Origin: Nitrospira sp. CG24E
GTDB taxonomy: Bacteria; Nitrospirota; Nitrospiria; Nitrospirales; Nitrospiraceae
Length of the DNA: 44,092 bases
Assembly (NCBI GenBank): GCA_002869895.2
Contig: NEWP02000010.1
Coordinates: 97,373 to 141,464 of the forward strand
Direction: 5' to 3'
Position numbers and translations under genes: made by a program. The stretch's first letter is position 1; every line of letters begins with the position of its first letter. Below are positions 1 through 22,719 of the stretch, one piece after another. The notes beneath the pieces were generated by a model. That model saw nothing but the letters and a program-made list of their open reading frames with translations. It was not told the DNA's origin and ran no database searches.

Positions 1-239
1 AGGAAGCAGGGTACGCAGTGGATTTAGTCAACAAGCTTGACTATTACGGATTCTTCCCCGGCGGCGACCACGTACCGTTCAAAGAGGCAGGAATTCCAAC
101 CGTCGCCATCGTGAGCGGCGGGGTCCACCCGCACTTTCATCAGCCCACCGACACCGCCGACACAATCAATCCGGAAATTCTACACACAGTAGCTCGGTAC
201 GTCTTTGCACTTACTTGGCAACTGGCGAATGATCGATGA
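1..239 (+). CDS. M28-family metallopeptidase, C-terminal part
   Basis: The reading frame is open from the first base, so the gene begins upstream of the window and only about 79 residues are seen. The segment GGDHVPFKEAGIPTV followed by a His-rich GVHPHFHQPTDTADTIN stretch matches the end of the zinc aminopeptidase (M28) fold, where an Asp-His pair and a later His bind the two metals and the H-x-P-x-D-T motif closes the active site. Family members release N-terminal residues from peptides and are usually exported; the N-terminus that would show this is missing. Its TGA stop overlaps the ATG of the next gene (ATGA), which suggests translational coupling. Confidence 0.82.
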   Translation, partial: EAGYAVDLVNKLDYYGFFPGGDHVPFKEAGIPTVAIVSGGVHPHFHQPTDTADTINPEILHTVARYVFALTWQLANDR

Positions 240-832
240 ATTCGATCGTCGCAAAAATCGGGGTAATAGCCGCCCTGCTACTTGCTCTTTGCAGCTCTCC
301 ATCCTGCGTAACCCGCCCAAATCTCGTGATCCATCAATCGGATACCCTCTCGGTCGTCCTCCGTGAGATGCCGTCCTGGCGCCCCTCGATCGAGCCCCAT
401 AACCACCCCTACCGAGTACCATCTAACGTGGTATTGGAAATACTGGCCTCACTCGATTATGGTGAAGGCTCGCTCTTGCCCTTTTCACAGGGACAGCCGC
501 GCCGTGTGTTTAGTAGGGGCCAGGCGGAATTGCTGGCGCCTGAATTGTCGATGGCGTTGGGGCAGGCACTGCCGCAGGAAGTGGCGGCTTTCAGTGTGGC
601 CGATGAGGATAGGCCTGATCGGCTCACGAAAGGCCTGAGTTTCGTACTTGGGGACGAATTGCATCTGATCGTTGACGAGCTGCGAAAACCTTCGTACCAA
701 GGAGAGCAACAGCCGTATCAGCAACCAGCGTCGCGATGGGAGTTGATTCCTGGCAACAAGCAGCGACATTACGCGACCCTCCCCGGAGGAAAGGGAATGA
801 CCACCAATTGGATCATTACCCCGTTACGGTAG
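236..832 (+). CDS. Exported protein of unknown function, possible lipoprotein
   Basis: 198 residues starting at an ATG that overlaps the stop of the peptidase gene. Residues 5-23 are hydrophobic after a single Lys, as in a signal peptide. A Cys follows at residue 24 (context SPSC), so it may be a lipoprotein, but the residues before the Cys are not a standard lipobox. The remainder is soluble, rich in Pro, Leu and Glu, with no motif I recognise. It lies 11 bp before the porin gene and is probably in the same transcript. Existence as a gene is supported by the start overlap, the signal-like start and lack of any competing frame; function is unknown. Confidence 0.65.
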   Translation: MNSIVAKIGVIAALLLALCSSPSCVTRPNLVIHQSDTLSVVLREMPSWRPSIEPHNHPYRVPSNVVLEILASLDYGEGSLLPFSQGQPRRVFSRGQAELLAPELSMALGQALPQEVAAFSVADEDRPDRLTKGLSFVLGDELHLIVDELRKPSYQGEQQPYQQPASRWELIPGNKQRHYATLPGGKGMTTNWIITPLR

Positions 833-2663: not shown

Positions 2664-4586
2664 ATGCTGATCCCACTGTTGATAAAAAACTCTTTGCCCC
2701 ACAAGCTGATGGCCCTCTTCTTTGCCGTCTTCTTCTGTGCCGTCTTCGGCTTGACCTATTTCGCCTATACATCCAGCCGCAACGCGATGTTCCAGGAATT
2801 CAAGATACGGGGGCAGACGCTCGCCAAGGCCATCGCTTCGGAAGCGCGAACCTATTATCGGGAACAGAACGTCGAGGGCTTGACCTCGCTGCTCCAATCG
2901 CTTGGTGAGGGCGAGGATGTCGTAGCCATCCTCGCCTATCGGCCCTCGAAAGACCTGTGGATCGAATTCGCCGGAATCGAACTCACCACCGAGGACCTGG
3001 GTTTCCCAGGGATAGGCGATGTGTGGCAGAGGGATGCGGTCCTCAAGAAAGGGCATAACGTTTCGGAGTTCGGGAACGCCGTGCTCGACTCGTCGAACCA
3101 AACGAAGAAGAGCAGCCTGACCGATATTCCACAAGACGGATGGATCAGGGTCTTCCTGGATCGGAGGGCGCTTGAACAGCGACTCAACTCACTGATCGTC
3201 CAAACCCTGTCGGTCAGCGCCCTCACGACCCTGTTCGGAGGCATCCTCTTCATCCTGTTGCTCAGACGATCCCTTCATGTCGTCGCCCCCCTCACCGCTG
3301 CGACCAAGAGGGTCGCGCTGGGAGATTTGGAGACGACCGTCCCCGTATCGAGCAGCGACGAGTTGGGCGAACTGGCAAAATGCTTCAACAGCATGACCGA
3401 GCAGCTATTCCACACCACCGTGTCCAAGAACTACGTGGACAATGTCATTCATTCCATGAACGATACCCTCATCGTCTTCAACCCGGAGGGCACCATACGC
3501 AGCGCCAACCGCGCCGCTTTGGATCTCCTCGGCTACGAGGAAGCAGAATTACTGGACCAAGACGCATCGATCATTTTTCCGCCGAATGAGAACCCGTTGC
3601 GCGGAACGCAGCAGCATGACCTCCTGGCGCAGGGCCCAATCGATCAGCTCGCCACGAACTATCTGGCGAAAGATGGCCGAACCTTCCCGATGCTCTTTTC
3701 TGCCGCCGTCATGCGGAACGAAGACGGAACAATTCAGGGAATCGCCTGTGTCGCGAAGGATATTACCGATCTGAAACAGGCGGAGAAGACGATCCAGGAC
3801 GCCCACCAGAAACTGAAACTGCTCGACCGATTGCGATCGCAATTTTTTGCCGATATCAGCCATGAGCTTCGAACGCCCTTGACCGTTATCCGCGGCGAAG
3901 CCGAAGTGACCCTGCGGGGCAAGGACAAACCCTTAACCGAATACAAAACCGCACTGGGCCGGATCGTCATCCTCACCAACCAGCTCAATAAGCTCGTGAG
4001 CGATTTACTATTCCTGGCACGGTCAGAGGGGAACTCCCTGGAGATCGGCAAACAGCCTACCCCGCTGATCGAGATCCTGCAGGAAGTCCATCGGGAAGCC
4101 CAAATACTCGCGCTCCACCGTGGCACCGTCGCGGACCTGGCCGCTCCGACCGACCCCCTCATTGTGGAAGGAGATCCCCAGCGTTTACAGCAATTGTTCA
4201 TGATCCTGGTCGACAATGCAGTAAACTATTTGAAGCAGGGCGGAACCGTTGAAATCCATGCCGCGAAATCAGACAAGGATGTGACGGTTATGGTCGCCGA
4301 CAATGGGATGGGAATCCCTGCTGCAGATCTTCCTCATGTTTTTGAACGATTCTATCGGGTGAAGCGGCAGCACAGGTCCACCCACCCAGGTTCTGGATTG
4401 GGCTTGCCGATCGCCAAGTGGATTACGGAAGCTCACGGAGGGACGATCTCTATTACCAGTGTCGTGGACCAAGGGACCACAGTGACCGTTCGGCTGCCTC
4501 TCAGCGAGGCCGAGACGTACCCTATTGACGATGAACATGAGGAACATCAGGTCTTCTCTCCCGACCAACAGGAGGTCCGACGATGA
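2664..4586 (+). CDS. Membrane sensor histidine kinase (HAMP-PAS-HisKA-HATPase)
   Basis: 640 residues. Transmembrane helix 1 spans about 15-36, a periplasmic sensing domain about 37-175, and helix 2 about 176-200. HAMP follows (about 200-255), then PAS (about 262-372), HisKA with the phospho-accepting His400 in SHELRTPL, and the ATPase domain with N box (VDNAVNYLKQ), G1 box (DNGMGIP), F box (FERFYRV) and G2 box (GSGLGLPIAK). It autophosphorylates and passes phosphate to a response regulator. The stop overlaps the start of the downstream regulator (ATGA), so they form a cognate pair. Domain order and the PstS-like neighbour recall PhoR, but the periplasmic domain is larger than in E. coli PhoR and the signal is unknown. 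Confidence 0.92.
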   Translation: MLIPLLIKNSLPHKLMALFFAVFFCAVFGLTYFAYTSSRNAMFQEFKIRGQTLAKAIASEARTYYREQNVEGLTSLLQSLGEGEDVVAILAYRPSKDLWIEFAGIELTTEDLGFPGIGDVWQRDAVLKKGHNVSEFGNAVLDSSNQTKKSSLTDIPQDGWIRVFLDRRALEQRLNSLIVQTLSVSALTTLFGGILFILLLRRSLHVVAPLTAATKRVALGDLETTVPVSSSDELGELAKCFNSMTEQLFHTTVSKNYVDNVIHSMNDTLIVFNPEGTIRSANRAALDLLGYEEAELLDQDASIIFPPNENPLRGTQQHDLLAQGPIDQLATNYLAKDGRTFPMLFSAAVMRNEDGTIQGIACVAKDITDLKQAEKTIQDAHQKLKLLDRLRSQFFADISHELRTPLTVIRGEAEVTLRGKDKPLTEYKTALGRIVILTNQLNKLVSDLLFLARSEGNSLEIGKQPTPLIEILQEVHREAQILALHRGTVADLAAPTDPLIVEGDPQRLQQLFMILVDNAVNYLKQGGTVEIHAAKSDKDVTVMVADNGMGIPAADLPHVFERFYRVKRQHRSTHPGSGLGLPIAKWITEAHGGTISITSVVDQGTTVTVRLPLSEAETYPIDDEHEEHQVFSPDQQEVRR

Positions 4587-5257
4587 ATATTCTCCTGATC
4601 GAAGACGACGAACGAATCTCCAGCTTCATCAAGCGCGGCCTGGAAGCAGAAGGCCACGTGATCGACCTCGCCCAGAACGGCCACGAAGGTTTTGACAAGG
4701 GCATGAATCCAGCCGATGTGATCATTTTGGACCTCCTACTGCCGGACAAGAATGGAGACGAAGTCTGCCAGGACCTGCGGCGCGAAGGGATCAAGACCCC
4801 GATCCTGATGCTCACCGCAAAGGACGCCCTCCAAGACAAGATCCACGGATTCGACTGCGGCGCAGACGACTACCTGACCAAACCCTTCGAGTTCGAAGAA
4901 TTGCTGGTGCGCCTCAAGGCCCTATCCCGTCGCCAGCCCCTCCTCAAGACCAGCGAGAAACTGCAAGTGGCTGATCTCACACTGGATCGAGACTCGCAAG
5001 AGGTGTATCGCGGAAAGGAACAGCTCACGCTGACACGCAAAGAATTCCTCCTCCTTGAATTTCTGATGGCCCAGGCCAACAAGGCCGTCAGCCGCACCTC
5101 CATACTCGAACGGGTGTGGGGCTATCATCATGACACCCTCACCAACAGCGTCGATGTCTATATCGGATTTCTTCGCAAGAAAATCGACACAGGACGAGAG
5201 CGCAAACTCATTCATACAGTCAGGGATTTCGGCTATAAAATCAAAGACCCAGACTAA
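4583..5257 (+). CDS. OmpR/PhoB-family response regulator
   Basis: 224 residues, ATG overlapping the kinase stop. The receiver domain (1-120) has the acidic pocket E7-D8-D9, phospho-acceptor Asp50 in ILDLLLPDKNG, Thr78 and Lys100 (LTKPF). The C-terminal winged helix (about 130-222) ends with the usual R-x-x-G-Y-K signature. Its partner is the kinase immediately upstream. It is a close paralogue of the regulator at 6732-7406: same length class, same EDDERISSF start and nearly identical winged-helix sequence. The Pho-box-like repeats downstream of both regulators are plausible targets of this protein, because PhoB/OmpR proteins bind 11-bp-spaced direct repeats. Confidence 0.93.
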   Translation: MNILLIEDDERISSFIKRGLEAEGHVIDLAQNGHEGFDKGMNPADVIILDLLLPDKNGDEVCQDLRREGIKTPILMLTAKDALQDKIHGFDCGADDYLTKPFEFEELLVRLKALSRRQPLLKTSEKLQVADLTLDRDSQEVYRGKEQLTLTRKEFLLLEFLMAQANKAVSRTSILERVWGYHHDTLTNSVDVYIGFLRKKIDTGRERKLIHTVRDFGYKIKDPD

Positions 5258-5319
5258 AGTAGGGATAGGTCAGCCCCGGTTTCTCTTCTCCTCTTTCTAA
5301 TCCCGACATTTTCGTTTTT

Positions 5320-5363
5320 TTTCATCCTTCTTTCATCTGCCTTTCATCTGGCGCTGCTAGAGT
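5320..5363 (+). promoter_or_regulatory. Pho-box-like triple repeat and -10 element
   Basis: Three copies of TTTCATC begin at 5320, 5331 and 5342, exactly 11 bp apart. An extended -10 (TGC-TAGAGT; hexamer 5358-5363) starts 16 bp after the start of the third copy. There is no separate -35 hexamer. E. coli Pho boxes are 7-bp CTGTCAT-type repeats separated by 4 bp and replace the -35, so layout and partial sequence agree. The binding protein is probably one of the OmpR-type regulators here (inference). It would drive the 41-residue peptide gene, the receiver protein and the PilZ gene. Confidence 0.7.
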
Positions 5364-5454: not shown

Positions 5455-5580
5455 ATGGACTTTAATCTCGTCACATCACTTCTTCTGAGCTGGGTCTGCC
5501 TGTCGCTCTCAATCGGCGCCATCATGGTTTTTGCCTCACTCGGCCAAGATGGCGAGAGCCATTTTGAGAGGCATAACTAA
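5455..5580 (+). CDS. Small single-span membrane protein, 41 residues
   Basis: An ATG at 5455 is preceded by AGGAGG (5441-5446) at 8-bp spacing, the strongest ribosome-binding site in this stretch. The frame encodes 41 residues and stops at TAA 5578-5580. Residues about 5-29 are hydrophobic (Leu, Val, Ser, Ile, Met, Phe with one Trp and one Cys), enough for one membrane helix, and the last 12 residues are polar with two His, two Glu, one Asp and one Arg. It sits about 90 nt after the Pho-box-like promoter and 4 bp before the receiver gene, so it is the first gene of that transcript. No family is recognised. A role as a kinase or membrane modulator is only a guess. Confidence 0.62.
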   Translation: MDFNLVTSLLLSWVCLSLSIGAIMVFASLGQDGESHFERHN

Positions 5581-5584: not shown

Positions 5585-6067
5585 ATGACACAAACAACGG
5601 TGGAACAGCCCCTCTCGAACAGCCGGCCCAAACGAATTCTCCTGGTTGAAGATGATGTCCGCATCGTCAACTTCATGCGGCGAGGCCTTGAGGCCGAAGG
5701 TATGACGCTGGACGTCGCCTGGGCAAAAGCCCCGGCCCTCCAGCTGGCTGAATCCCATCGCTACGACGCCATCATTCTTGACATCTATCTCGGAGACGAC
5801 AACGGCCTGGAGCTCTGCCGGAACCTCCGGCAGCGCGCGATTACATCTCCGATCCTGACCATGACGGCCAAGGACAGCATGGAGCTGCGTGAAGCCAGTG
5901 TGCAAGCCGGGGCCAGCGCGTATTTTGCGAAGCCCTTCTCTTTCGATGACCTTCTCAACACACTGGAGAAAGCCTGCCGGGGCCATTCAAAAATCGACGA
6001 AGCGACAACCAGTGGGGTTGCCGACGCAATGACGAGCCTGAATGACGGATTGCCTAGCTCTCGTTAA
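5585..6067 (+). CDS. Receiver-only response regulator
   Basis: 160 residues from the ATG at 5585, 4 bp after the small membrane gene; earlier in-frame starts would overlap that gene. A 16-residue lead is followed by a CheY-type receiver: E22-D23-D24 pocket, phospho-acceptor Asp66 in ILDIYLGDDNG, T-A-K near 94-96 and Lys116 in AKPF. About 30 polar residues follow, with no DNA-binding or enzyme domain. It therefore works by protein contact or as a phosphate sink. It resembles the receiver protein at 7580-8041 (ILDIYLG-DDGL motif in both), so the two are a duplicated pair. The dinucleotide IY after the Asp distinguishes them from the OmpR-type pair. Confidence 0.87.
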   Translation: MTQTTVEQPLSNSRPKRILLVEDDVRIVNFMRRGLEAEGMTLDVAWAKAPALQLAESHRYDAIILDIYLGDDNGLELCRNLRQRAITSPILTMTAKDSMELREASVQAGASAYFAKPFSFDDLLNTLEKACRGHSKIDEATTSGVADAMTSLNDGLPSSR

Positions 6068-6091: not shown

Positions 6092-6502
6092 GTGACGCGC
6101 TCATCCACCGAGCCAACAGACAGACGTTTTTCACTGCAAGTGGGGGCCGACATGGAACAGACAGAGTGGACGTGGCCGATAACCGATGGTCAGAATGGTC
6201 ATAGTGAACGGGCCTCGTTGTTGAGACCGGTCCTGTACGAGATGACGACATCCGTCGAAATCCCAGCCCGACCGGCTAGCAGTGGGAAGGTGCTCTCGCT
6301 GAACATCAGCAGCGGAGGCATGCTGGTCTTGATGGACCAATCCCCGAAGGTTGGGCAGGTCTTAAAAGTCCACATCCCTACACCGATCTTGCAAACAGAA
6401 ACCCCGACCCTCGCGGAAGTTCGCTGGAGCAGAAGACTGCCGTTCGATAGGCCCGACGGCAATGAGGCCTACTTTGTCGGATTGAAGTTCATGTTCTCTT
6501 GA
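6092..6502 (+). CDS. PilZ-type domain protein
   Basis: 136 residues from a GTG at 6092; an ATG at 6152, preceded by GGGGG, is an equally good start and would give 116 residues. The segment VLSLNISSGGMLV holds the N-x-S-x-x-G half of the PilZ c-di-GMP motif, followed by the usual run VGQVLKVHIPTP and a late FVGLKF strand. The upstream R-x-x-x-R half is not clear (only R-A-S-L-L-R, one residue too many), so c-di-GMP binding is uncertain. It lies 24 bp after a receiver protein in the same direction. A role linking c-di-GMP to the downstream glycan genes is plausible because PilZ proteins often control exopolysaccharide (inference). Confidence 0.72.
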   Translation: MTRSSTEPTDRRFSLQVGADMEQTEWTWPITDGQNGHSERASLLRPVLYEMTTSVEIPARPASSGKVLSLNISSGGMLVLMDQSPKVGQVLKVHIPTPILQTETPTLAEVRWSRRLPFDRPDGNEAYFVGLKFMFS

Positions 6503-6731: not shown

Positions 6732-7406
6732 ATGCGCGTTCTGGTGATTGAAGACGACGAGCGGATTTCAAGTTTTCTCAAACGGGGCCTGGAAGCAGAC
6801 GGCTACCTGGTCGACATCGCTCACGATGGCCAAGAAGGCGTTCAGAAGGGCATGGACCCCTATGACATCATCGTCCTCGACCTGCTGCTTCCAGGGAAAA
6901 ACGGCCATGAGATCTGCCAGGAGCTGCGCCGTGAGCAGGTCAAGACTCCGATCTTGATGCTCACAGCGAAAGACACGCTCCAAGATAAACTGAGCGGCTT
7001 CGATAAGGGGGCGGACGATTATCTGACCAAGCCATTCGCTTTCGAGGAACTCCTGGCGCGTATCAAGGCATTACTTCGACGCAAACCCTCTTACGATGAG
7101 GCTGCCACCCTGCTGCAGGTGGCCGATCTCACCCTGGATCGGAACACCCGCGAAGTGTGCCGCGGAGCCCAGGCGATCGCATTGACCAAGCAGGAGTTTG
7201 ATCTTCTCGCATTCTTGATGTCCCATCCCGATAAAGCATTAAGCCGCGTATCCATTCTCGAACAGGTTTGGGGATACCATTACGACACCCTCACCAACGT
7301 CGTCGATGTCTATATCGGTTACCTCCGGAAAAAGGTCGATGGCAGCCACAAGAAGAAGCTCCTTCAAACCGTGCGTGATATCGGATACAAGATCTCCGCA
7401 AATTAG
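6732..7406 (+). CDS. OmpR/PhoB-family response regulator, paralogue
   Basis: 224 residues from the ATG at 6732, chosen because it aligns with the start of the paralogue at 4583 and has AGGA in front; a GTG eight codons upstream is possible. Receiver residues are E7-D8-D9, Asp50 (VLDLLLPGKNG), Thr78 and Lys100 (LTKPF). The C-terminal winged helix is nearly the same as in the first regulator, including the segments around VWGYHYDTLTN and VDVYIGYLRKK. No kinase is adjacent, so it may share the kinase at 2664-4586 or be fed by another. The near-identical winged helices imply overlapping DNA targets. Confidence 0.92.
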   Translation: MRVLVIEDDERISSFLKRGLEADGYLVDIAHDGQEGVQKGMDPYDIIVLDLLLPGKNGHEICQELRREQVKTPILMLTAKDTLQDKLSGFDKGADDYLTKPFAFEELLARIKALLRRKPSYDEAATLLQVADLTLDRNTREVCRGAQAIALTKQEFDLLAFLMSHPDKALSRVSILEQVWGYHYDTLTNVVDVYIGYLRKKVDGSHKKKLLQTVRDIGYKISAN

Positions 7407-7468
7407 CCTTCCCACCCTGCTTCATCGAGATCCTATTTATCCGGTTTTCATTTCGCTTTTTACCAATT

Positions 7469-7512
7469 TCTCATCTCCTTTTCATTCGACTCTCACATTT
7501 TCCGTCTACACT
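7469..7512 (+). promoter_or_regulatory. Second Pho-box-like repeat and -10 element
   Basis: TCTCATC (7469), TTTCATT (7480) and TCTCACA (7491) lie at exact 11-bp period. A -10 hexamer TACACT starts at 7507, which is 16 bp after the start of the third repeat, the same offset as at 5320-5363. The matches to TTTCATC weaken from copy to copy. A further TTTCATT at 7446 lies one base out of register. The element precedes the receiver gene at 7580 and, with no clear terminator between, may also feed the glycan genes from 8119 onward (inference). Confidence 0.6.
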
Positions 7513-7579
7513 GACCCCCTAGCGGACCAGGTTGCGGAATGACCCTCAACCTCCTCAATCATCCATATGGTGAACAACT

Positions 7580-8041
7580 GTGCATATCCTGGTTGTGGAA
7601 GACGATGAGCGGATTGTCAGCTTTATGAAGCGCGGGCTTGAAGCAGAAGAATATGGCGTGGATATCGCGTCGGGAAAGGCCCAGACCTTCGACCTGACTC
7701 AGTCCCGCATCTACGACCTTATTATCTTGGACATCTATTTAGGCTCGGATGACGGGCTCGACATCTGCCGGACCCTTCGACGGCAATCAGTGCGAACCCC
7801 CATCTTGGTCATGACGGCCGAGGGCTCCCTAGAGACCAGACGGGCAAGCGAGGAAGCCGGCGCTGATGCGTACCTGTCAAAGCCCTTCCCATTCGAAGAC
7901 CTCCTAACAACGATTACACGTCTTCACCAATCCTCCGTGCCTTCCGATACCCCCAAGAACTCCCGGCAGGATTACTCTGCTTCCCGAAGAAAAAATCGAG
8001 AGCGTTTACAAATTGCCGGTTCCAGCGTCAAACGACTATAG
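7580..8041 (+). CDS. Receiver-only response regulator, paralogue
   Basis: 153 residues from a GTG at 7580 that opens directly on HILVVEDDERIVSF, the normal start of a receiver. Phospho-acceptor is Asp51 in ILDIYLGSDDG, with T-A near 78 and the conserved Lys in SKPF. About 33 basic and polar residues follow the receiver; there is no output domain. It is the counterpart of the receiver at 5585 and sits behind the second Pho-box-like promoter in the same arrangement. It is the last regulator before the glycan locus; 77 bp separate it from the first glycosyltransferase. Confidence 0.85.
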   Translation: MHILVVEDDERIVSFMKRGLEAEEYGVDIASGKAQTFDLTQSRIYDLIILDIYLGSDDGLDICRTLRRQSVRTPILVMTAEGSLETRRASEEAGADAYLSKPFPFEDLLTTITRLHQSSVPSDTPKNSRQDYSASRRKNRERLQIAGSSVKRL

Positions 8042-8118: not shown

Positions 8119-9393
8119 ATGTTAATCATGCTCTACTCACATGATAGTTACGGCCTCGGCCATATTCGCCGCAGCCTTGAAATTGCGAAACACCTGTCCG
8201 AGAGCATCCCCCATGCATCGTTAGTCATGCTGACCGGCTCGATGCAGGCTCACGCTTACTCCCTGCCCGAACGCATGGAGTACATAAAATTGCCGGCGCT
8301 GACAAAAGACGCCGGGGGACAGTATCGTTCGCGGCTGCTCCCCCACACAATCGATATTACCTTGAAACTTCGGCAGAAGATCATTTTAGAAAGCATCCGC
8401 GATTTGAAACCCGACGTCTTCCTGGTTGACAAGGCGCCGGCAGGAATACTGGGAGAACTATTGCCGGCCCTCCATTTCCTCAAGACCAAATTGCCCAAGA
8501 CCAGGATCGTCTTAGGCATGCGCGATATCGAAGATCATCCCGACCATGTCCAGGCAGAATGGGCCAAATCCGGCGTGGTGCCGTTATTGGAAAACACGTA
8601 TCACTCCATTTTCCTTTATGGTGCGCGCTCTATCTACGATCCGGTCAAAGAATATGGGCTGTCTCCCTCCATTGAAAAAAAGCTCGTATCTTGTGGCTAT
8701 ATAGGCAGAAATCAACCAATACGGTCTACAGAATCCATTCGAGGGGAATTGATGATGCAGACCGATCGTTTGGTGTTGGTCACGCCGGGCGGCGGGGACG
8801 ATGGATATACCATCCTGGAAACCTACGTTCGAATGTTGCAGAAACAATTCACGTCAAGCCGCCCGAATTTCGATACCTTAATGGTCACCGGCCCTTTGAT
8901 GGATCTGAGCAAACGCCAGCGACTGCAGCAGGCGGCGAGTGCGGATTTGGGGCTGACTGTCACCGACTTTACCCCCTACCTGTACGATTATCTGAGCGCA
9001 GCCGATCTCGTCGTTTCGATGGGCGGATATAACACCGTCGTCGAAATATTGACCGCCAACCAACGCGGAATCATTGTGCCGCGCGTTCATCCGCGCCTGG
9101 AGCAATGTATCAGGGCTGAACGTCTTGCGGCCAAAGGCCTCATCGACATGATTCACCCGACAGAGTTGAACCCTGACAGTCTTTTCCATGCAGTCAACCG
9201 TTCACTACAGCAGCCGCGTCCTATTCGTCTACAGGATATCGGGGTGGGGCTTAACGGTGCGGTCAATGTGTCCAGGGCGCTGAAGCAATTATATCTGGAA
9301 AGCCAAACCGTCGAGCCACGCGCCGTGCCATTCCGCAGAGCCTCGGTTCTTGGCGCTGCACCGGCGCTCGTGGAAGCAGAGGCTACGGTCTAA
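8119..9393 (+). CDS. GT-B fold glycosyltransferase (COG4671-like)
   Basis: 424 residues; ATG preceded by GGAG. The N-terminus has HDSYGLGHIRRSLEIA, the G-x-G-H-x-x-R loop of MurG and related nucleotide-sugar transferases. The C-terminal half carries VTPGGGDDGY and SMGGYNTVVEIL followed by an Arg/Glu-rich segment, the UDP-sugar-binding region of this group. It lacks a signal peptide or membrane span and would act at the inner face of the cytoplasmic membrane, adding a sugar to a lipid-linked or free acceptor. The N-terminal half of the protein at 17007-19019 is a paralogue. Donor and acceptor are unknown. Confidence 0.83.
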   Translation: MLIMLYSHDSYGLGHIRRSLEIAKHLSESIPHASLVMLTGSMQAHAYSLPERMEYIKLPALTKDAGGQYRSRLLPHTIDITLKLRQKIILESIRDLKPDVFLVDKAPAGILGELLPALHFLKTKLPKTRIVLGMRDIEDHPDHVQAEWAKSGVVPLLENTYHSIFLYGARSIYDPVKEYGLSPSIEKKLVSCGYIGRNQPIRSTESIRGELMMQTDRLVLVTPGGGDDGYTILETYVRMLQKQFTSSRPNFDTLMVTGPLMDLSKRQRLQQAASADLGLTVTDFTPYLYDYLSAADLVVSMGGYNTVVEILTANQRGIIVPRVHPRLEQCIRAERLAAKGLIDMIHPTELNPDSLFHAVNRSLQQPRPIRLQDIGVGLNGAVNVSRALKQLYLESQTVEPRAVPFRRASVLGAAPALVEAEATV

Positions 9394-9396
9394 ACC

Positions 9397-12057
9397 ATGG
9401 CTACTCGCCCATCGATTAAAAAAATCGGCTACCTCATCAAGATCTTCCCGAAGGTCTCGGAGACGTTCATCCTTCAAGAGATTCTCGACTTAGAGGCCCT
9501 GGGGCTGGATCTTGAAATTTATTCCCTGCAACGGCCCACCGATGACATCACCCACGGCCTGGTCGGTCAGGCCCGTGCGTCCGTCACCTATCTGTCGGCG
9601 TCGCCCTTTGCCCTCCGCCGAAACCCCCTCTGGGCGCACCTGCGTCTCTTTATCACATCGCCCCGGCGGTACCTGTCGACGGTGCGCTTCTGGCTCCGAA
9701 CCCCGGAGCGGCCCTCGCTGTCGAAGTTTCTCCAGGCCGGTTCCCTCACCACATCGCTCCTCGACGCAAACATCAGCCACCTCCACGCTCACTTCGCCAA
9801 TGCCCCCACGAGCGTCGCTGAGCTGGCCCATCGGTTTGCCGGAGTTCCTTACAGCATGACCTGCCATGCGAAGGATATCTTCCTTGCGACCCCCTCCACG
9901 CTTCAGCGGAAAATGCGCCATGCGGAATTCGTGGTCACCTGCACCGAAGACAATCGGCAGTATCTCCAACGTCTCGCAGGCGACAGTACGCCGATTTCCT
10001 GCCTCTACCATGGTCTCAACCTGGTTCGATTCGATACGATGAAGCCGAATCGCGGGGTGCTGCGCTCGACCATCCCCACCATCATGAGCGTGGGACGATT
10101 CAAAGAAAAAAAGGGGTTCCTCACCCTCATCCGAGCCTGCCACCTCCTGGCCCTCCGTGGCTGTCAGTTCCGCTGCTGCATCGTCGGGTACGGCCCATTG
10201 CAAGCCGACATGGAGTCCCTGATCCGAGAGCTGAACCTCGAAGATATTGTCCAGCTCGCCGGCAAAAAGACTCTGGAAGAGGTGGTAGCTCTCTACCAAG
10301 AATCCGATATCTTTACCCTGCCCTGCCAGGTCGCTCAGGACGGCGATCGCGACGGAATTCCCAATGTGTTGATGGAAGCCATGGCCTGTCGCCTGCCGGT
10401 CGTCACCACGGAGGTGTCCGGTATTCCGGAACTGATTCAGCATAACCACAACGGTATCCTGGTGCCCCCGCAAGATCCAGAATCCCTGGCGTCGGCCCTC
10501 GCCCGCCTCATCGATAATCGGAGCCTACGCCAAAACCTCGGGCAGGCAGGACGAGCGACCATCGAGCAGCGATTCTCTTCGATCCAGACCAGCCATCGCC
10601 TCAAGGAACTGCTGCTCAAAGAAGCGCCCACTGCAAGAGCTGAGACCCCCTCTCATGAATCGGAGACAGCCTGCTGCCCCGACCATAGCAGCGCAGATCT
10701 GTCGTCTCATGACGGAACGGGAACGGCAGACCATCGGATCGGGTATATTCTGAAGGGGTTCCCTCGCAGGTCGGAAGCCTTTATCACCAACGAGATCTCG
10801 CTCTTGGAACAGATGGGTCTTCGGCTCCACCTATTCTCAGCCTTTCAAGGCGAGGCAGAAGGCGCAGGATCACAGGCTCGTGCCCTATTGTCGCCGCTCA
10901 CCCATCTTCCTGAAGACAACGAGAAAACAGGCAGCGGGTTTCTCCCCTGGCTGACTGCAAACCTTCCCCGCTATCTTTCCAGCCACGTTCGAATGATACG
11001 AACGTCTCCGCTCCGATATCTACGCGCTGCGTCCGAGGCAGTGAGACTCAGCATCCACTGTCGGTCCGAATTCTTCTCGTGGCCCAAGAAAGTGTTCTAC
11101 AAGGATTTCCTTCGCGCCGGATTTATCGCTGAATTCGTGGTCGAAGCGGGAAACATCCGCCACCTCCACGCGCATTTCTGTCATGGATCGACCACCATGG
11201 CGATGTTTGCAAGCATGCTGACCGGGCTCCCCTTCAGTTTCACCGCCCATGCGAAGGATATATATCTGCCGAAACTCAATCCCGGTGATCTGTTGCAGAT
11301 CAAGCTGCGCCGGGCGAAGTTCGTCGTCACCTGCACCGGCGCCAACCATCAATACCTGGAAGAGGCCTGCCCACAGGGTTCGCCAATCCATACGATTTAT
11401 CATGGAGTCGACACAGCTCGGTTCACTCCGGTCCAGCGGCAGACTCACGCGGTTCCCGTGATTCTCTCCGTGGGGCGTTTTGTGGAAAAGAAGGGGTTCC
11501 CATTTTTGGTGGAAGCCTGTCGAATCCTCAAGGAACATGGGCTAGCGTTCCACTGCCGGATCCTCGGCGAGCCGGATGAACAGACCGAAGTGGTGCAGAA
11601 CCTGATCAGCCGGTATGGACTTGAGAAGCACGTGGCGATCGAGCCCGGCGTGTCGCAGGAGGAACTGCGTGCCGTCTACCAAACCGCCACCCTCTTCGTG
11701 CTGCCCTGTCACATTGTGGACAATGGGGATCGGGACGGGATCCCCAACGTCCTTGCGGAGGCCATGGCGTCCGGCATCCCGGTGGTCTCGACCGCGATCT
11801 CAGGAATTCCAGAATTGGTCGAACACCGGCGCAACGGCCTCCTCGTCGCCCAACGAGACCCTGTAGGCCTTGCCAAAGCTATCGAAGAATTGTTGCGCGA
11901 TCCGCAACTCCGCGATAGCCTAGCCGAAGCTGGGCGCGCGGCGATCGGCCAAATCTTCGATTCGAGTACCACGACCAAACGACTATTCGATCTCTTTCAG
12001 GCGGAACTTTTCGGACCCTCCGCCCACCATAAGGAAATCCATGCTTCTCACCGTTAA
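9397..12057 (+). CDS. Fused tandem GT4 glycosyltransferases
   Basis: 886 residues made of two homologous family-4 glycosyltransferase units. Unit 1 begins at residue 7 (IGYLIKIFPKVSETFI) and unit 2 at 448 (IGYILKGFPRRSEAFI). Each contains a LHAHFA/LHAHFC motif, a HAKDI motif, an SVGRF-x-EKKGF motif, and a C-terminal DGDRDGIPNVL-x-EAMA region with the acidic GT4 nucleotide-sugar signature. Both units look intact, so both could be active, perhaps adding two sugars in sequence. A polar linker of about 40 residues joins them. The gene starts 3 bp after the preceding transferase and overlaps the next gene by 17 bp. Fused tandem GT4 proteins exist, but I do not recognise this one. Confidence 0.88.
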   Translation: MATRPSIKKIGYLIKIFPKVSETFILQEILDLEALGLDLEIYSLQRPTDDITHGLVGQARASVTYLSASPFALRRNPLWAHLRLFITSPRRYLSTVRFWLRTPERPSLSKFLQAGSLTTSLLDANISHLHAHFANAPTSVAELAHRFAGVPYSMTCHAKDIFLATPSTLQRKMRHAEFVVTCTEDNRQYLQRLAGDSTPISCLYHGLNLVRFDTMKPNRGVLRSTIPTIMSVGRFKEKKGFLTLIRACHLLALRGCQFRCCIVGYGPLQADMESLIRELNLEDIVQLAGKKTLEEVVALYQESDIFTLPCQVAQDGDRDGIPNVLMEAMACRLPVVTTEVSGIPELIQHNHNGILVPPQDPESLASALARLIDNRSLRQNLGQAGRATIEQRFSSIQTSHRLKELLLKEAPTARAETPSHESETACCPDHSSADLSSHDGTGTADHRIGYILKGFPRRSEAFITNEISLLEQMGLRLHLFSAFQGEAEGAGSQARALLSPLTHLPEDNEKTGSGFLPWLTANLPRYLSSHVRMIRTSPLRYLRAASEAVRLSIHCRSEFFSWPKKVFYKDFLRAGFIAEFVVEAGNIRHLHAHFCHGSTTMAMFASMLTGLPFSFTAHAKDIYLPKLNPGDLLQIKLRRAKFVVTCTGANHQYLEEACPQGSPIHTIYHGVDTARFTPVQRQTHAVPVILSVGRFVEKKGFPFLVEACRILKEHGLAFHCRILGEPDEQTEVVQNLISRYGLEKHVAIEPGVSQEELRAVYQTATLFVLPCHIVDNGDRDGIPNVLAEAMASGIPVVSTAISGIPELVEHRRNGLLVAQRDPVGLAKAIEELLRDPQLRDSLAEAGRAAIGQIFDSSTTTKRLFDLFQAELFGPSAHHKEIHASHR

Positions 12058-14038
12058 TCAGCCGGCGCCGGCTCAGGACACCGACCGCCGCCGCATCTTC
12101 GCCGCCCCCTATTGCGAGTTGACGGAGGAAGCCTTGCTGCGGCACTTCCAAACCAGGACTGCGATTCAATATTTTCCGGTCCCGGATGCTGTAGAGACCG
12201 CACGTCCCAAGATCGACGGCATGTTGCAGAACCAGTTTGAGTTCAACGGTGAATGTCACAGGCTGCCCTCTCCGATCCTGTGGCTCGATAATCCCAGCCA
12301 GGATCGGGAATGGCTAATCCTGCTCCACAAATTCTATTACTCCGTCGGGCTCGGAATGGCCTATCACGAGACGAACGAATCTGACTATGCCGAGAAATGG
12401 GTTGAGCTCACTAAATCATGGCTCCAAACCGTTCCGAACGATTTTCTGCCGAGCGATGTCGCCGGCCGTCGGATTCAAAACTGGATCTTCGCCCAGCACT
12501 ATTTCGTGAGCACCAGACAGCCGAGCTGCGTGACGCCGGACTTCTATCTTGCCTTCCTGGAATCGCTGCACAACCAGATATCCTACTTGCGCGACCACCT
12601 GACCCCGACCAGGAATCACCGGACGTTGGAACTCTGCGCGATCTTCCTGGCTTCTGTCGTATTCCCGGAGTTTGCTGACGCAGCGGAGTGGCTGACATCG
12701 TCCAGAGATGAACTCGTGAAAAACATTCAATCCGATCTCCTGCCAGACGGGATCCACTGTGAACAGTCCACCGACTATCACCATCTGGTCCTTAAGAATT
12801 ACCTCTGGATCAGGAAGCTCGCCCTCCTCAATCGTATCGAGATGCCCGGAGAGTTCGATGCACTGGTGAAGAAAGCCTTGGAGTTTTCTCTCTACAGCCA
12901 CAGGCCCGACGGGGCAATCCCCTCCCTGAGCGACGGAGATAGCCGCTGTTTCCTGGACCTATTGCAGCAGGGCTATGAACTCTACGGGGGAGAAGACCTC
13001 TTGTATGTCGCGTCGCGCGGCATGCAGGGGCACCCGCCCGCCGAACGTTCAAAAGGTTTCGATGCCGGAGGCTACTACATTCTCCGGAGCGGCTGGGGCG
13101 ACCGGGATGAATCGTATGAGGACGAACGCCATTTGATCTTCGATTGCGGCCCCCTCGGCGCAGGCAATCATGGGCACTTGGACCTCCTCAGCTTCGAAGC
13201 CTCGGCTTACGGCAAACCGCTCATCGTCGATCCCGGTCGTTACACCTACGACGAATCAGGCCCCGTCAATTGGCGGGCCATGTTTCGCGGTACCGCCTAC
13301 CATAATACGGTGTTGGTGGATAAGCGGAATCAAACCAGCTACGAGTGGCGCAAGGGTCGCTTCCGGATCTCCGGCCCTGAGCCGGAGCGGGAGCTTGCAG
13401 CCTTCGCCAGTCAACCAGGTCTCGATTATCTGCACGGAATCGCCAGAAGCCACGAATACCCGGTCATCCACGAACGAAAGGTGGTCTTCGTCAACGGTGA
13501 ATACTGGGTGATCGTCGATCTCCTGAAGGCGCAAGAGCCACATGAGTACGATCTCCTGTTCCACCTGTCCCCACAAGCGCAGGGTCGAATCTGGGTCGGA
13601 TCGTCGCATGACACATTGTCGATCCACTCGCCACAGCTCATTCTCGCGCACCCCTTCGTTCCGAACCTGCAGCCTTCGATCGAGGAAGGATTTGTGTCCC
13701 TCTCCTACGGCGAAAAACACCGAGCTCCGATCGTTCGGTTGAATCAACGAAACTTATGCGCGTGCTTTTTGACCGTCCTGTATCCATATAGAGACGATAC
13801 GCCGACGATCTCTATCGACATGCCGGAATCCCAGGAAGGCCTGCAGGGCTTCCTATCTGCCGAACCGGCAATGGCGAGGATCGCAATTGTGCGTGATGGA
13901 AGACAGGTTCACGACGAGTTGCTGCTTACCGGCCAGGTCGTCCCGGATGGCGGAGGGGCTGAGGCCCTCGCGACCGGCCACCTGCGCGTCTCACGAACGG
14001 ACCAGCACAACCGCCTTCTGTTTCAGTATCAGGTCTAA
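12041..14038 (+). CDS. Heparinase II/III-family protein, no signal peptide
   Basis: 665 residues; ATG at 12041 has AAGGAAATCC in front and lies inside the end of the previous gene. Residues about 35-330 are helical (alpha/alpha toroid, with FYYSVGLGMAYHETNE and NHRTLELCAIFLA), and about 340-640 form the beta-sandwich typical of PF07940, including NHGHLDLLSFEA, VDPGRYTYDESGP and AYHNTVLVD. Known members cleave uronic-acid polysaccharides by beta-elimination. The N-terminus is polar with no signal peptide, so the protein is predicted to be cytoplasmic, unlike most secreted lyases. Within a synthesis locus it may trim the polymer, act in repair or have lost lyase activity. Confidence 0.85.
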   Translation: MLLTVNQPAPAQDTDRRRIFAAPYCELTEEALLRHFQTRTAIQYFPVPDAVETARPKIDGMLQNQFEFNGECHRLPSPILWLDNPSQDREWLILLHKFYYSVGLGMAYHETNESDYAEKWVELTKSWLQTVPNDFLPSDVAGRRIQNWIFAQHYFVSTRQPSCVTPDFYLAFLESLHNQISYLRDHLTPTRNHRTLELCAIFLASVVFPEFADAAEWLTSSRDELVKNIQSDLLPDGIHCEQSTDYHHLVLKNYLWIRKLALLNRIEMPGEFDALVKKALEFSLYSHRPDGAIPSLSDGDSRCFLDLLQQGYELYGGEDLLYVASRGMQGHPPAERSKGFDAGGYYILRSGWGDRDESYEDERHLIFDCGPLGAGNHGHLDLLSFEASAYGKPLIVDPGRYTYDESGPVNWRAMFRGTAYHNTVLVDKRNQTSYEWRKGRFRISGPEPERELAAFASQPGLDYLHGIARSHEYPVIHERKVVFVNGEYWVIVDLLKAQEPHEYDLLFHLSPQAQGRIWVGSSHDTLSIHSPQLILAHPFVPNLQPSIEEGFVSLSYGEKHRAPIVRLNQRNLCACFLTVLYPYRDDTPTISIDMPESQEGLQGFLSAEPAMARIAIVRDGRQVHDELLLTGQVVPDGGGAEALATGHLRVSRTDQHNRLLFQYQV

Positions 14039-14041
14039 ATC

Positions 14042-15532
14042 ATGATGGATCATGCTGTGATCAACGGCCCCCCCCCATCTCGACCTTCCGAGGCCGACTC
14101 AATCAACGACATCCCCCGGGATGGATTGCTCCCGCAACTTGCGGAAATTCTGAATTCCGCAGCCATGAAGGGGCAGCTGCAGGAACGTATGTTTGCATCG
14201 ACCGGGGATCGAGAGCGCTTCCTCATCCGGTTCTGTGAGATCGTCCAGATCCGTTACAAGCCGGAATCCTCCTGCATGGTGAGTTACCGATTGGAGATTG
14301 AAGATGCGGTGACAGGGAACAGAGGAGAACAGATCTTGTGCGGTCGCGCCTACCCACAGGGCCGCTCGCAATCACAGTGGGAGAAGGCAGGAGCACAGGC
14401 CCTTGTTCAGCCACGATTCGGAAATCCGCTCGTCCATCTACCAGAGTTGGAGATGGTCCTTTGGAGTTTTCCCAACGACCGGAAGATGCACACGTTGCCG
14501 GATGCAATCGACCCAATTCACAGCACACCTGAATTCCTCCCGGACTGGCTCGCCTTGCATCTAGGCACAGGGTGGCAAGTGATCAACGCAATCCCCCGGG
14601 TCGTGCACTATGTCGGCGAGCACACTTGCACGGTGCGGACATCGGTAGATCTGGTGCACCGGTCCATGAACGAGCGCCGGACAATGACCATCTTCGGCAA
14701 GACTTATTACAACGGGGAAGGAGCCGAGACCGATCGCGTGATGCGACAACTGTGGGACAGTGAGGCCAGACAGAGCGGACGGTTGGCCGTAGCACAACCC
14801 CTGTGGTATGACGCGCGCCTCCTGACGCTGTGGCAACTGGGTATTCAGGGCGCCACGCTGGAGAACTGCGCTACCGAGAGCCAGGAATTTGTCCCGCTCC
14901 TCATGGAGGCAGCCCGCGCCATTGCTGCATTACATGCTATGCCCCTGTCGCACATCCGGTCGGTCACCCTGCCGGACCTGGTCGCGAAGCTCAAATCCGT
15001 CACAGCAATGCTGATCCGGCGCCGGCCATCTTGCCAGCCGGTCCTTGTCCCTCTCGTGAACCGGTTGATCGCTCAGGCCGAAACGATTCCCCTTCACCCT
15101 ACCGCGACCCTCCACGGCGACCTACATTTGAAGAACCTCTTTCTGACACAGAACAAGGTGGCATTGATCGACCTGGATAACATTTGCGAAGGTCCTCCCT
15201 GTCAGGATATCGGCAGCTTTGTGGCGGGACTGTTTACACGGGCTCTGGCAAAAGGGACGTCACCTTCTCAGGTAGCAAGTTGCGCGCAGACATTCATCCA
15301 CCAATACAGTCAGCTGGTCCCATGGCAAACTGACGAGCCTGTAGTAGCCTGGTTCACCGCCGTGGCCTTGGTGACCGAGCGCTCGTCCCGGTGCGTAACC
15401 CGTCTGAAAGAGGGGCGGCTCGCAATGGTGAACAGTCTCATCGACCTCGCCGATAGGATTTCCAAAACCCGTTCATTGGACTCGGCGGTCGGCGGGGGGG
15501 CTGACAGGCATGAGAGGACCATTGTGCCGTGA
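14042..15532 (+). CDS. APH/choline-kinase-fold phosphotransferase
   Basis: 496 residues. The C-terminal half has HGDLHLKN (His358, Asp360, Asn365) and LIDLDN about 17 residues later, the catalytic and Mg-binding loops of the aminoglycoside phosphotransferase/choline kinase fold. The N-terminal 200 residues are an extended lobe with repeated RxE/RxxY strands. Position between a heparinase-like protein and a second kinase-fold protein suggests it phosphorylates a sugar, lipid head group or amino alcohol used on the glycan (inference). Antibiotic resistance is unlikely in this setting. It is a paralogue of 15623-16984: both share the VVHYVGEHTC/VVNYRPEIRC type segment and the FGKT(Y/F) motif. 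Confidence 0.75.
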   Translation: MMDHAVINGPPPSRPSEADSINDIPRDGLLPQLAEILNSAAMKGQLQERMFASTGDRERFLIRFCEIVQIRYKPESSCMVSYRLEIEDAVTGNRGEQILCGRAYPQGRSQSQWEKAGAQALVQPRFGNPLVHLPELEMVLWSFPNDRKMHTLPDAIDPIHSTPEFLPDWLALHLGTGWQVINAIPRVVHYVGEHTCTVRTSVDLVHRSMNERRTMTIFGKTYYNGEGAETDRVMRQLWDSEARQSGRLAVAQPLWYDARLLTLWQLGIQGATLENCATESQEFVPLLMEAARAIAALHAMPLSHIRSVTLPDLVAKLKSVTAMLIRRRPSCQPVLVPLVNRLIAQAETIPLHPTATLHGDLHLKNLFLTQNKVALIDLDNICEGPPCQDIGSFVAGLFTRALAKGTSPSQVASCAQTFIHQYSQLVPWQTDEPVVAWFTAVALVTERSSRCVTRLKEGRLAMVNSLIDLADRISKTRSLDSAVGGGADRHERTIVP

Positions 15533-15622
15533 ACTTCCATACCCCTTCACGCCCAACCATAGTCTACCTTCTCACTGGCCAACGGGCCGGGCTGGGATGC
15601 AAAGACCTCACGGTGTAGCGCC

Positions 15623-16984
15623 ATGACGATCACGGCCCCTATTACCCCCAGCAAAGCCTTTCAACGCTTCACGACCCCGGCAGTTGTATCAGAGATGCTT
15701 CGATCTTACCTGCCCGAATTTTCCAACAGATCTTGGGAGATAAGGGAGTGCGCAATTGGCGATACCAAGCTGAAAACTTACTTGAGACCTGAGAGCAAGG
15801 TCAAATCTACATTGTCCGTCTGTTACCAAGTCACCCTCAGGGAGGCTGCAACCGGTGAATCTTCCCGACGCATCCTGTACGCCAAGATGTTTCTCGGCGG
15901 CCGCAGTAAAGAAGCCTTTCAACGTCTTACCGACGGCGGATGGACCGACTCGGAGCTTCAACAAGCGATAACCCATGTCCCGGACCTCGACATGATCCTG
16001 TGGAGATTCCCCCACGATCCGGGCCTGCCCCATCTACGCCATCTCATGAATCTGCACGCAGTTCGCGAACACTTACCCGCCGAAGGTCTCAGGAACCTTG
16101 GCATGAGCGGAACACCCCAGGTATTGGCCAGCCACGTGGTGAACTACCGTCCCGAGATACGCTGTACAAATCGGTATGACCTCTACGATCCGCACCATGA
16201 TCGTGCCTCCCAACTGTTTGGTAAAACTTTTCGCGCAGGAGAAGGGCAAGCGCTCAGCGAACGGCTGGAGTACTTCTGGAACCGCTCCCTCGCAGACCCG
16301 AACGCCATGGCCGTGGCTCAACCTCTCGGTTATGCCGCACCAGTCAACACCGTGTGGCAACTTGGAGTCCCCGGCATGCCGCTCCTTCAGACCCTCGACA
16401 GGTCAAATTACGAACAGTACCTCGCATCTGTCTCGAAAGGGTTGGCGTCATTACATACCAGCAACGTCGCAGATTTGGCCACCCATGCGCCTGCCGACCA
16501 TATCGTCGAGGTCCGCAAAAAACTTCTAAAACTCTCAGACGCTATACCGCGCTTGGCGATAGACTTTGAAGCCATGGCTGACCGCCTTGAACAGACCGCG
16601 CCCCATCCATCGGATATTCCATTTCGCCCCATCCATTGGGATTTTCATGTTCATCAGTTACTTGCTTGTAAGGGGAAACTCGTGTTTTGCGACCTTGATG
16701 AGCTCGTTATCGGAGACCCAGTCCAGGATCTCGCCAATTTCATGGTCGATCTTCATTTCCGCAACTTAGACCGGGAGTTTGTGCGGCTCATGGAGGGGGA
16801 ACTCTATCGCTCGTATCGGAAGCAGGCGGAGTGGAACGTGCCTCTCGAACGGTTAGCCTGGCATTCACGCCTCCAGTTTGTTAATAAGGCCTACCGGAGC
16901 TACCTGCAATTTGCTCCAGACTTCGAACAGACCGTTGAGCAGATTTTCCGATTGGCCGCAGGAGACTCGCTGTATGTTGCATGA
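15623..16984 (+). CDS. APH-fold protein with altered Mg-binding loop
   Basis: 453 residues, 90 bp after its paralogue. The catalytic loop reads IHWDFHVHQLL: His338 and Asp340 are kept, but the Asn that binds Mg in the family is Gln345. The second metal loop reads FCDLDE instead of the usual I-D-F/L-D. The general base Asp and the second Asp remain, so activity may be retained or altered. The N-terminal lobe matches the upstream paralogue over FGKTF and VAQPLGY. Cytoplasmic; no signal peptide. The 90-bp gap before it shows no clear promoter. The end of this gene overlaps possible upstream starts of the next gene. Confidence 0.7.
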   Translation: MTITAPITPSKAFQRFTTPAVVSEMLRSYLPEFSNRSWEIRECAIGDTKLKTYLRPESKVKSTLSVCYQVTLREAATGESSRRILYAKMFLGGRSKEAFQRLTDGGWTDSELQQAITHVPDLDMILWRFPHDPGLPHLRHLMNLHAVREHLPAEGLRNLGMSGTPQVLASHVVNYRPEIRCTNRYDLYDPHHDRASQLFGKTFRAGEGQALSERLEYFWNRSLADPNAMAVAQPLGYAAPVNTVWQLGVPGMPLLQTLDRSNYEQYLASVSKGLASLHTSNVADLATHAPADHIVEVRKKLLKLSDAIPRLAIDFEAMADRLEQTAPHPSDIPFRPIHWDFHVHQLLACKGKLVFCDLDELVIGDPVQDLANFMVDLHFRNLDREFVRLMEGELYRSYRKQAEWNVPLERLAWHSRLQFVNKAYRSYLQFAPDFEQTVEQIFRLAAGDSLYVA

Positions 16985-17006
16985 GCCGGCCCACAGAGGA
17001 GACCGC

Positions 17007-19019
17007 GTGGAAAGACCGCGCGTTCTCATCTATTGCCAGCACATCCTCGGGATGGGGCACCTCATCAGAAGCATGGCGATCGCGCGGGCGCTTAAGAATT
17101 GCGACGTCCTGTTTGTGAACGGAGGCGAATCGTTATCAGGAATCGACATTCCTTCCTGGGTGACGGTTGTGAATATGCCCCCCATCACTTCCGATGGGGA
17201 ATTCCAATCATTGAACGTCTCAACGGCACAGGCCACACTCGAAGAAGTTCAGCAGGCCCGCAAAGCACAGTTGTTGGATTGTTTCGATCGCCATCGCCCC
17301 CATGTACTGGTCATCGAGTTGTTTCCGTTCGGAAGAAAGCGATTCGCGTTCGAATTGCTGCCGCTACTGGCGCACATTCGCCTGTCGGGCGGCTCTACGA
17401 AAGTGGTCTGCAGCCTGCGGGATATCCTGGTCACGAAGTCGGATCAAGCCCGCCATGAGGACTGGGTCGTGAGTCTGATGAATCGATACTTCGATCTCCT
17501 CCTGATTCATTCGGATCCGACATTTCAGACCCTGGATGAGACATTCTCACGGTGCCAAGATCTCCGATGCGATGTCCAGTACACGGGCTTCGTCACGCAG
17601 GAACCTGACGAGCGGATCGGCCTTTCCGATGTGGAAAGCGAGCCGGCCTCCGATGGAATTCCCCTTGTCCTTGCGAGTGTCGGCGGCGGACGCGTGGGAT
17701 ACGAGCTCCTCGATGGCGCGGTTCAGGCCTCCTCGCTGCTGATAACAACGCGCCCACACCGGATGCTCGTCTTCACCGGACCCTATATGCCAGATCAGCA
17801 GTATGAGCAGCTTCAACGTCTTGCAGCCCAGCAGCAACACATTGAGATCCGCCGCTTCACCCCCCATTTTCAGTCGCTCATGAAACGTGCAACAGTCTCC
17901 ATCTCGATGGCGGGCTACAATACCTGCATGAACCTGTTGACGACTGGCACGCGAGCCCTGGTCTTACCCTTTACCGGTCACGCGAATGAAGAGCAAACGA
18001 TTCGCGCGAAGAAACTGGAGCGATGCGGGTTGCTTACCATGCTGGAACCGGACGATCTCCTTCCGGATCGGCTGGCTGCAAAGATAGAAGCGTCGCTGGT
18101 CGGCCCCCAGATGAATCATCATCATTCCATCAATGTCGACGGAGGCAAACAAACTGCCAACGCCATCGAAAAACTCGTTCCCAAAGCGTATGCCAGTTCT
18201 TCCGCGACAGATATGGGATCTGCTTCAAGTTCTGCATATCAGGCAGAGGGTTGGCTCTCAGACCTGCGCCGATTTCTTACATCGCAGCAAGCCCAGGGGC
18301 AAGACCTGCACCTCTTCCTCAGAGACGACGACGTCGATGAGGACGAGGAGACACTCAGGCATCTGCTGGATATTGCACTGGCGCGTAGCGTCCCGATGAA
18401 TCTGGAGATTGTTCCTGCCCGGCTCACAGCTGCCGCGATCGCCGTTCTGAAAAATACCCTCAGGGCCGATTCCTCCCTGTTGAGTCTCAACCAGCATGGC
18501 TGGATTCACGCCAACCATGAAACCGAAGGACGCAAATGCGAGTTTGGTCCTTCGCGCTCGCTGGTGCAGCAAGCCGAAGACATCGCTCGAGGAAAGGCCC
18601 TGCTGGAATCTGCATTCGAAGATCGGTTCTACCCCGCCTTCACTCCCCCCTGGAATCGTTGCACCAAGGACACCTATCAGGTCCTCGACGAACTAGGATT
18701 TCTCATCCTGTCCAAGGACCAGGGGAAAGAGCCGATCGCCGGCTACCGGTTCAAGAATATTTCCACGACCTTGGATCTCTATACGTGGAAAACAGGCGCC
18801 CGCATGAAAGCGCCGCATGAGATCGTCCAGGGTCTGATTTCGCAAATGCAGGAGCTCCCTGTAGTAGGTCTCCTGCTGCACCATAAGGTCATGGATGCAG
18901 CGGCATTTCATTTTCTAGACCAGCTTCTCCGCGAGCTTTCTGGCGTCCCGGTTGTACGGTTCCATACGTTCCAAACCTTACTCCCGCTCACGGCGGAAGC
19001 ATGGATGGTGTCACGATGA
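17007..19019 (+). CDS. Glycosyltransferase fused to polysaccharide-deacetylase-like domain
   Basis: 670 residues from GTG 17007, chosen because AGAGGAG lies 5 nt upstream and the protein then opens like its paralogue at 8119; ATG 16974, inside the preceding gene, is the alternative. Residues 1-385 are a COG4671-type GT-B enzyme (QHILGMGHLIRS and SMAGYNTCMNLL). After a Ser/Ala linker, residues about 425-665 resemble a carbohydrate esterase 4/NodB-type deacetylase: LRDDDVDED for the metal-binding Asp motif, QHGWIHANH for the His motif, FTPPWNR for motif 3 and LLLHHK near the end. One polypeptide may add an N-acetylated sugar and then deacetylate it. It has no signal peptide, so the deacetylase would act inside the cell. 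Confidence 0.78.
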   Translation: MERPRVLIYCQHILGMGHLIRSMAIARALKNCDVLFVNGGESLSGIDIPSWVTVVNMPPITSDGEFQSLNVSTAQATLEEVQQARKAQLLDCFDRHRPHVLVIELFPFGRKRFAFELLPLLAHIRLSGGSTKVVCSLRDILVTKSDQARHEDWVVSLMNRYFDLLLIHSDPTFQTLDETFSRCQDLRCDVQYTGFVTQEPDERIGLSDVESEPASDGIPLVLASVGGGRVGYELLDGAVQASSLLITTRPHRMLVFTGPYMPDQQYEQLQRLAAQQQHIEIRRFTPHFQSLMKRATVSISMAGYNTCMNLLTTGTRALVLPFTGHANEEQTIRAKKLERCGLLTMLEPDDLLPDRLAAKIEASLVGPQMNHHHSINVDGGKQTANAIEKLVPKAYASSSATDMGSASSSAYQAEGWLSDLRRFLTSQQAQGQDLHLFLRDDDVDEDEETLRHLLDIALARSVPMNLEIVPARLTAAAIAVLKNTLRADSSLLSLNQHGWIHANHETEGRKCEFGPSRSLVQQAEDIARGKALLESAFEDRFYPAFTPPWNRCTKDTYQVLDELGFLILSKDQGKEPIAGYRFKNISTTLDLYTWKTGARMKAPHEIVQGLISQMQELPVVGLLLHHKVMDAAAFHFLDQLLRELSGVPVVRFHTFQTLLPLTAEAWMVSR

Positions 19020-22683: not shown

Positions 22684-22719
22684 CGCCTTCAATCCATCCA
22701 CCTGCCCCGCAACCGGCAT

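Follow-up and report, generated by a model that had tools for sequence, protein, structure and literature searches.

The window, meaning the whole stretch of 44,092 nucleotides from Nitrospira sp. CG24E analysed here, carries on its forward strand two promoter boxes, A and B, each lying between a gene for an OmpR/PhoB-type response regulator and a gene for a receiver-only protein. The features of the locus are as follows.

2664-4586 (+): sensor histidine kinase (HAMP-PAS-HisKA-HATPase), with a 4-bp overlap with the regulator gene
4583-5257 (+): OmpR/PhoB-type response regulator, the best candidate for binding box A, in a clade of its own from four box-A genomes
5308-5314 (+): decayed fourth and most distal half-site of box A, ATTTTCG, as aligned with relatives
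5319-5347 (+): box A, half-sites TTTTCAT / CTTTCAT / CTTTCAT with 4-bp spacers
5355-5363 (+): extended -10, TGC-TAGAGT, with the hexamer position kept in 19 aligned sites
5455-5580 (+): putative membrane peptide of 41 aa with a strong Shine-Dalgarno sequence, present in four genomes
5585-6067 (+): receiver-only response regulator (Pfam Response_reg only), the first conserved gene past box A, with box-linked orthologues
6152-6502 (+): PilZ-domain protein, likely cotranscribed with receiver gene 5585 and kept behind the receiver gene in L002, L042 and L043
6732-7406 (+): second OmpR/PhoB-type regulator, 67% identical to regulator 4583
7446-7496 (+): box B, five half-sites TTTCATT, TTTTTAC, TTCTCAT, TTTTCAT and CTCTCAC at an 11-bp period
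7507-7512 (+): box B -10 hexamer TACACT, 10 nt past the proximal half-site
7580-8041 (+): second receiver-only protein, directly ahead of the polysaccharide operon
8119-24810 (+): predicted exopolysaccharide synthesis/export cluster, its first genes syntenic in relatives

The kinase-regulator pair that the initial annotation placed before the repeats is thus present as the first two genes listed. The cluster at 8119-24810 encodes a GT28-type and a double GT4 glycosyltransferase, a heparinase II/III protein, two APH-type kinases, a further GT28-type protein, an ABC exporter, an Alginate_exp outer-membrane protein and an OEP protein, families that suggest that it makes and exports an exopolysaccharide. 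The two receiver-only proteins share 57% identity over 112 residues, and the one at 5585 matches the receiver domain of regulator 4583 at 43% identity. With two boxes, and regulators and receivers that are 67% and 57% identical, respectively, the locus is a tandem pair of units, each consisting of an OmpR-type regulator, a box and a receiver-only gene. Upstream, a 151-aa PBP_like_2 protein is encoded between the porin and histidine kinase genes (2198-2653, +); this order is kept in many relatives, the porin and PBP genes occurring twice in G002, and the protein might assist the kinase as an accessory sensor. Towards the other end of the window, a 1757-aa protein (38495-43768, +) combines DUF4011, AAA_11/AAA_12 helicase and MTES_1575 nuclease domains; in PADLOC it scores 1246 bits with PDC-S37, a candidate defence model, and 612 bits with Hhe.

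Three exact copies of TTTCATC are found at 5320-5326, 5331-5337 and 5342-5348, with 4-nt gaps and an 11-bp period, just as the initial annotation had described. Box A alone matches the TTTCATC triple at up to three mismatches in the whole window (chance mean 0.01) and is likewise the single such site in the 3.45-Mb genome, where two copies with at most one mismatch do not recur either. When homopolymer-like and two-base words are left out, the window has no other exact 7-mer in three copies evenly spaced with a period of 8-25 bp. Since the surrounding region is rich in T and C, the repeats could be seen as incidental to a pyrimidine-rich stretch, with no regulatory role. However, none of 20,000 composition shuffles of box A's own intergenic region reproduced an exact triple at period 11, and the register, the spacing to the -10 and the linkage to the locus are kept across two genera, making this reading barely credible. 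The register that matches the family lies one base to the left of TTTCATC, giving YTTTCAT at 5319, 5330 and 5341, which is the PhoB register. At the position of the fourth half-site, a well conserved TTCTTAY is seen in most box-B relatives, and TTTTTAG or TTTTTCT in box-A relatives.

The third TTTCATC copy is followed by TGGCGCTGC-TAGAGT, which places the -10 hexamer at 5358-5363, exactly 10 nt from the proximal half-site of box A. A sigma-70-like -35/-10 pair was looked for at the box A promoter and none was found, as expected of an activator-dependent promoter; the extended -10 with the repeats in place of a -35, as previously proposed, is therefore upheld. The transcript would start at around 5370. 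As no terminator was found between the kinase-regulator operon and the box A operon, the latter could also be transcribed by read-through. The leader gave no structured-RNA match in Rfam at E<=0.1. The box B promoter is situated 3' of the second OmpR-type regulator gene (6732) and 5' of receiver-only gene 7580. In several box-B promoters, a GGTTGCG/ATTGCG-like word recurs in the untranslated leader around 20 nt past the -10 (e.g., window 7528-7536).

A genome search for the run of three TTTCATC words with N4 spacers had been suggested to reveal which genes follow. It returned the unique site described above and no regulon, and the strict triple was accordingly rejected as a genome-wide regulon box, being also absent, at up to two mismatches, from 31 further genomes of the genus. 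As the strict triple is too rare, a degenerate form, (YTYTYAY-N4)x3-N10-TANNNT, was needed. At up to two mismatches, this pattern finds only the box A and box B promoters in the genome. It also picks out the orthologous locus in at least 19 related genomes, and the 10-nt spacing to the -10 hexamer is constant in 19 aligned sites. In a survey of 118 family genomes, the pattern occurred at up to one mismatch in 14, comprising 12 of the 14 genomes with a close receiver-only gene (E<1e-30) versus 2 of the 104 others (Fisher p ~1e-12). The remaining two genomes with the receiver-only gene, G016 and G019, have weaker versions of the box at the same place, and the reversed pattern, used as a control, had no match in the family genomes. 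Extending the search to 396 genomes of the phylum, the pattern newly found five family genomes (G325, G331, G343, G368 and G429), all five with a receiver-only gene and a glycosyltransferase of the 8119 type downstream and four of them with a regulator immediately upstream of the box. Outside the family, the matches were scattered in AT-rich DNA at a rate similar to that of the reversed-pattern control, and a wider distribution was rejected as chance.

In relatives, the usual order is a gene related to window 236-832, a porin, a short PBP-like protein, a histidine kinase, an OmpR-type regulator, the box, a receiver-only gene and glycosyltransferases. The box thus typically follows an OmpR/PhoB-type regulator gene directly and precedes an exopolysaccharide synthesis/export cluster. 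In five genomes (G003, G008, G064, G069 and G098), insertions separate the regulator and receiver genes, and the box still precedes the receiver gene. This argues that the box serves as the promoter of the receiver operon rather than being incidental to the 3' end of the regulator gene. In Nitrospirota, the box is also a computable DNA signature by which a dedicated two-component system can be recognised next to a polysaccharide cluster of the alginate-export type. In G003, an 80-aa ORF after the first box (L044:3629-3871) resembles the receiver-only protein over 31 residues only, and a complete receiver-only copy with its own box is located 5 kb further downstream, which looks like duplication followed by decay. 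In a related genus, further promoters of the same class were observed at L085 (G082 C3:165331), L047:5792, L052:6202 and L053:13542, with genes behind them that have no Pfam name where scanned, and the box regulon may be larger there than here.

The initial annotation had assigned the promoter to the membrane peptide gene. The 41-aa peptide is maybe the first gene downstream, and its relatives, which are 38-41 aa long and found behind box A in four genomes, retain the start region and one hydrophobic helix, making a small membrane protein plausible. However, it is restricted to these four genomes, and clear purifying selection was not established by dN/dS (0.16/0.09 for the closest pair, with lower ratios for the other pairs). 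The constant follower is instead the receiver-only gene, which is the conserved target of the box.

Taken as a site class, the boxes show 7-bp direct repeats with a 4-bp spacer that replace the -35 at a fixed distance from the -10, linked to a regulator with REC and Trans_reg_C domains. The PhoB-type site that had been proposed is hence retained as an OmpR/PhoB-family architecture, present in about 19 genomes with 10 nt to the -10, while the link to phosphate is not. If this were instead a true Pho box, with the genome's PhoB as its binder and phosphate limitation as the inducer, that would account for a geometry identical to that of Pho boxes, for a TCA core in common with CTGTCAT and for the porin and short PBP/PstS-like genes nearby. 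Yet the PstS-like neighbour is not borne out, as the 151-aa protein matches the PstS model only in part, its 34 bits falling well short of the cut-off of 206.6. The true pstS lies at C2:21473 on the window's own contig, followed by pst permease and PstB genes, and a separate pair like PhoB/PhoR (L070), together with a pst operon (L069), is encoded elsewhere in the genome behind promoters with different half-sites (NTGTAAC/NTGTAAT/CCGTAAC). Among the four full-length OmpR/PhoB regulators of the genome, the best PhoB match is on contig 14 (242 bits, below the TIGR02154 cut-off of 296.2); it has a PhoB-like helix and adjoins a kinase scoring above the cut-off for PnpS, whereas regulators 4583 and 6732 score 181 and 200 bits. 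All regulators of the polysaccharide locus have the recognition helix N.(V/I)DVYIG[YFS]LRKK (N.VDVYIG[FY]LRKK in the two local ones), in contrast to RTVDVHIRRLKQK in the contig-14 PhoB.

The promoters of the pst locus read CCGTAAC-N4-CCGTCAT-N4-TCTTAAT-N10-TATCCT and TTGTAAC-N4-ATGTAAT-N4-TGGTAAC-N10-CATTCT, and roughly a dozen further genomes of the genus have pst promoters with the form NTGTAAC/NTGTAAT/NGGTAAC. Because these promoters carry NTGTAAY, versus YTTTCAT in box A, at the same 10-nt spacing, the genus uses a phosphate box of the same geometry with a different half-site. Moreover, the box studied here is confined to the polysaccharide locus, with two promoters genome-wide, and is not found at phosphate genes. 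Phosphate control of the box A promoter is consequently not supported; membership of the phosphate regulon was rejected on the pst promoter and PhoB comparisons, and we consider a true Pho box very unlikely. The two Pho-box promoters at L069:1880-1920 and L069:3340-3390, before a porin-like gene and pstS and with N10 to the -10, can serve as a Pho box reference for this lineage.

We therefore favour the repeats as the binding site of another OmpR/PhoB-family activator, which is probably regulator 4583-5257, encoded immediately ahead of the box, possibly also regulator 6732-7406, and would drive a small operon; we hold this with good confidence. Adjacency by itself is no proof that a regulator binds the box, and because the recognition helices of 4583 and 6732 are almost identical, the binder of each box cannot be assigned from the sequence. 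The same likeness, together with the position of box B directly behind regulator 6732, would allow 6732 alone to control both boxes while 4583 works elsewhere. However, G016 (L002) and G019 combine box A and a receiver-only gene with just a 4583-type regulator. In addition, the 4583-type regulators form a clade of their own from four genomes (100/100 support) that coincides with box A, box B going with 6732-type regulators. Control by 6732 alone is thus unlikely, though less so than a Pho box.

With regulator 4583 as the preferred activator, we propose that kinase 2664 phosphorylates the regulator, which would then line up head-to-tail on three to five half-sites spaced by 11 bp, as PhoP does, and recruit RNA polymerase to an extended -10 without a -35. 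Box A would switch on an operon of the 41-aa peptide, the receiver-only protein, the PilZ protein and perhaps regulator 6732, while box B would drive receiver-only gene 7580 and the adjoining exopolysaccharide operon. The receivers may compete for phosphate or relay the signal. A further extension, put forward tentatively and with considerable doubt, is a private two-tier circuit running from the kinase through regulator 1 and box A to the receiver-only protein, PilZ protein and regulator 2, and from there through box B to the second receiver-only protein and the exopolysaccharide. Here, each receiver-only protein, descended from the receiver domain of the regulator that switches it on, would feed back as a phosphate sink and render polysaccharide production pulse-like, and the unit would have arisen once and been duplicated in tandem. 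The box promoter itself is genuine, conserved, locus-specific and of the OmpR/PhoB type, an ordinary kind of promoter in a circuit that, like the locus itself, is undescribed in the literature searched.

Compared with known systems, the boxes resemble the Pho box bound by PhoB at the E. coli phoA promoter (CTGTCAT-AAAG-TTGTCAC-N10-TATAGT, ahead of the annotated phoA) in the 7-bp half-sites, the 4-bp spacers, the replacement of the -35 and the N10 to the -10. They differ in the half-site, YTTTCAT / TTCTCAT versus CTGTCAT, in the recognition helix of the regulators and in being restricted to one locus and unlinked to pst, and Pho-box-like geometry need thus not imply phosphate control. Regulator 4583 has its second-closest solved relative in Mycobacterium tuberculosis PhoP. 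This protein sits as a compact tandem dimer, with a trimer or tetramer possible, on direct repeats of 7 bp whose spacer is strictly 4 bp, and contacts bases through Asn212, Val213, Glu215, Ser216, Tyr217 and Tyr220 (PMC4832192). These contacts fall on residues of the local helix. Both regulators share the Asn and the first Tyr, and regulator 6732 has Val213 and Tyr220 as well; the PhoP sites (TCACAGC-N4-TCACAGC) differ in half-site sequence, genes and an unrelated lineage. CusR/CopR-type heavy-metal regulators (TIGR01387) are the best NCBIfam model for the two regulators (226 and 238 bits), but both score under the curated cut-off of 279.2, and no metal-resistance genes were found among the Pfam-named genes of the window. 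Finally, VemR-type receiver-only regulators of Xanthomonas, which are linked to exopolysaccharide, are likewise tied to polysaccharide control (PMC9923393). The parallel lies in this association, and the receiver gene differs here in being the target of the box beside its own kinase and regulator. The conserved pairing of an activator site with a receiver-only gene offers a clean, testable case for stand-alone receivers in polysaccharide control.
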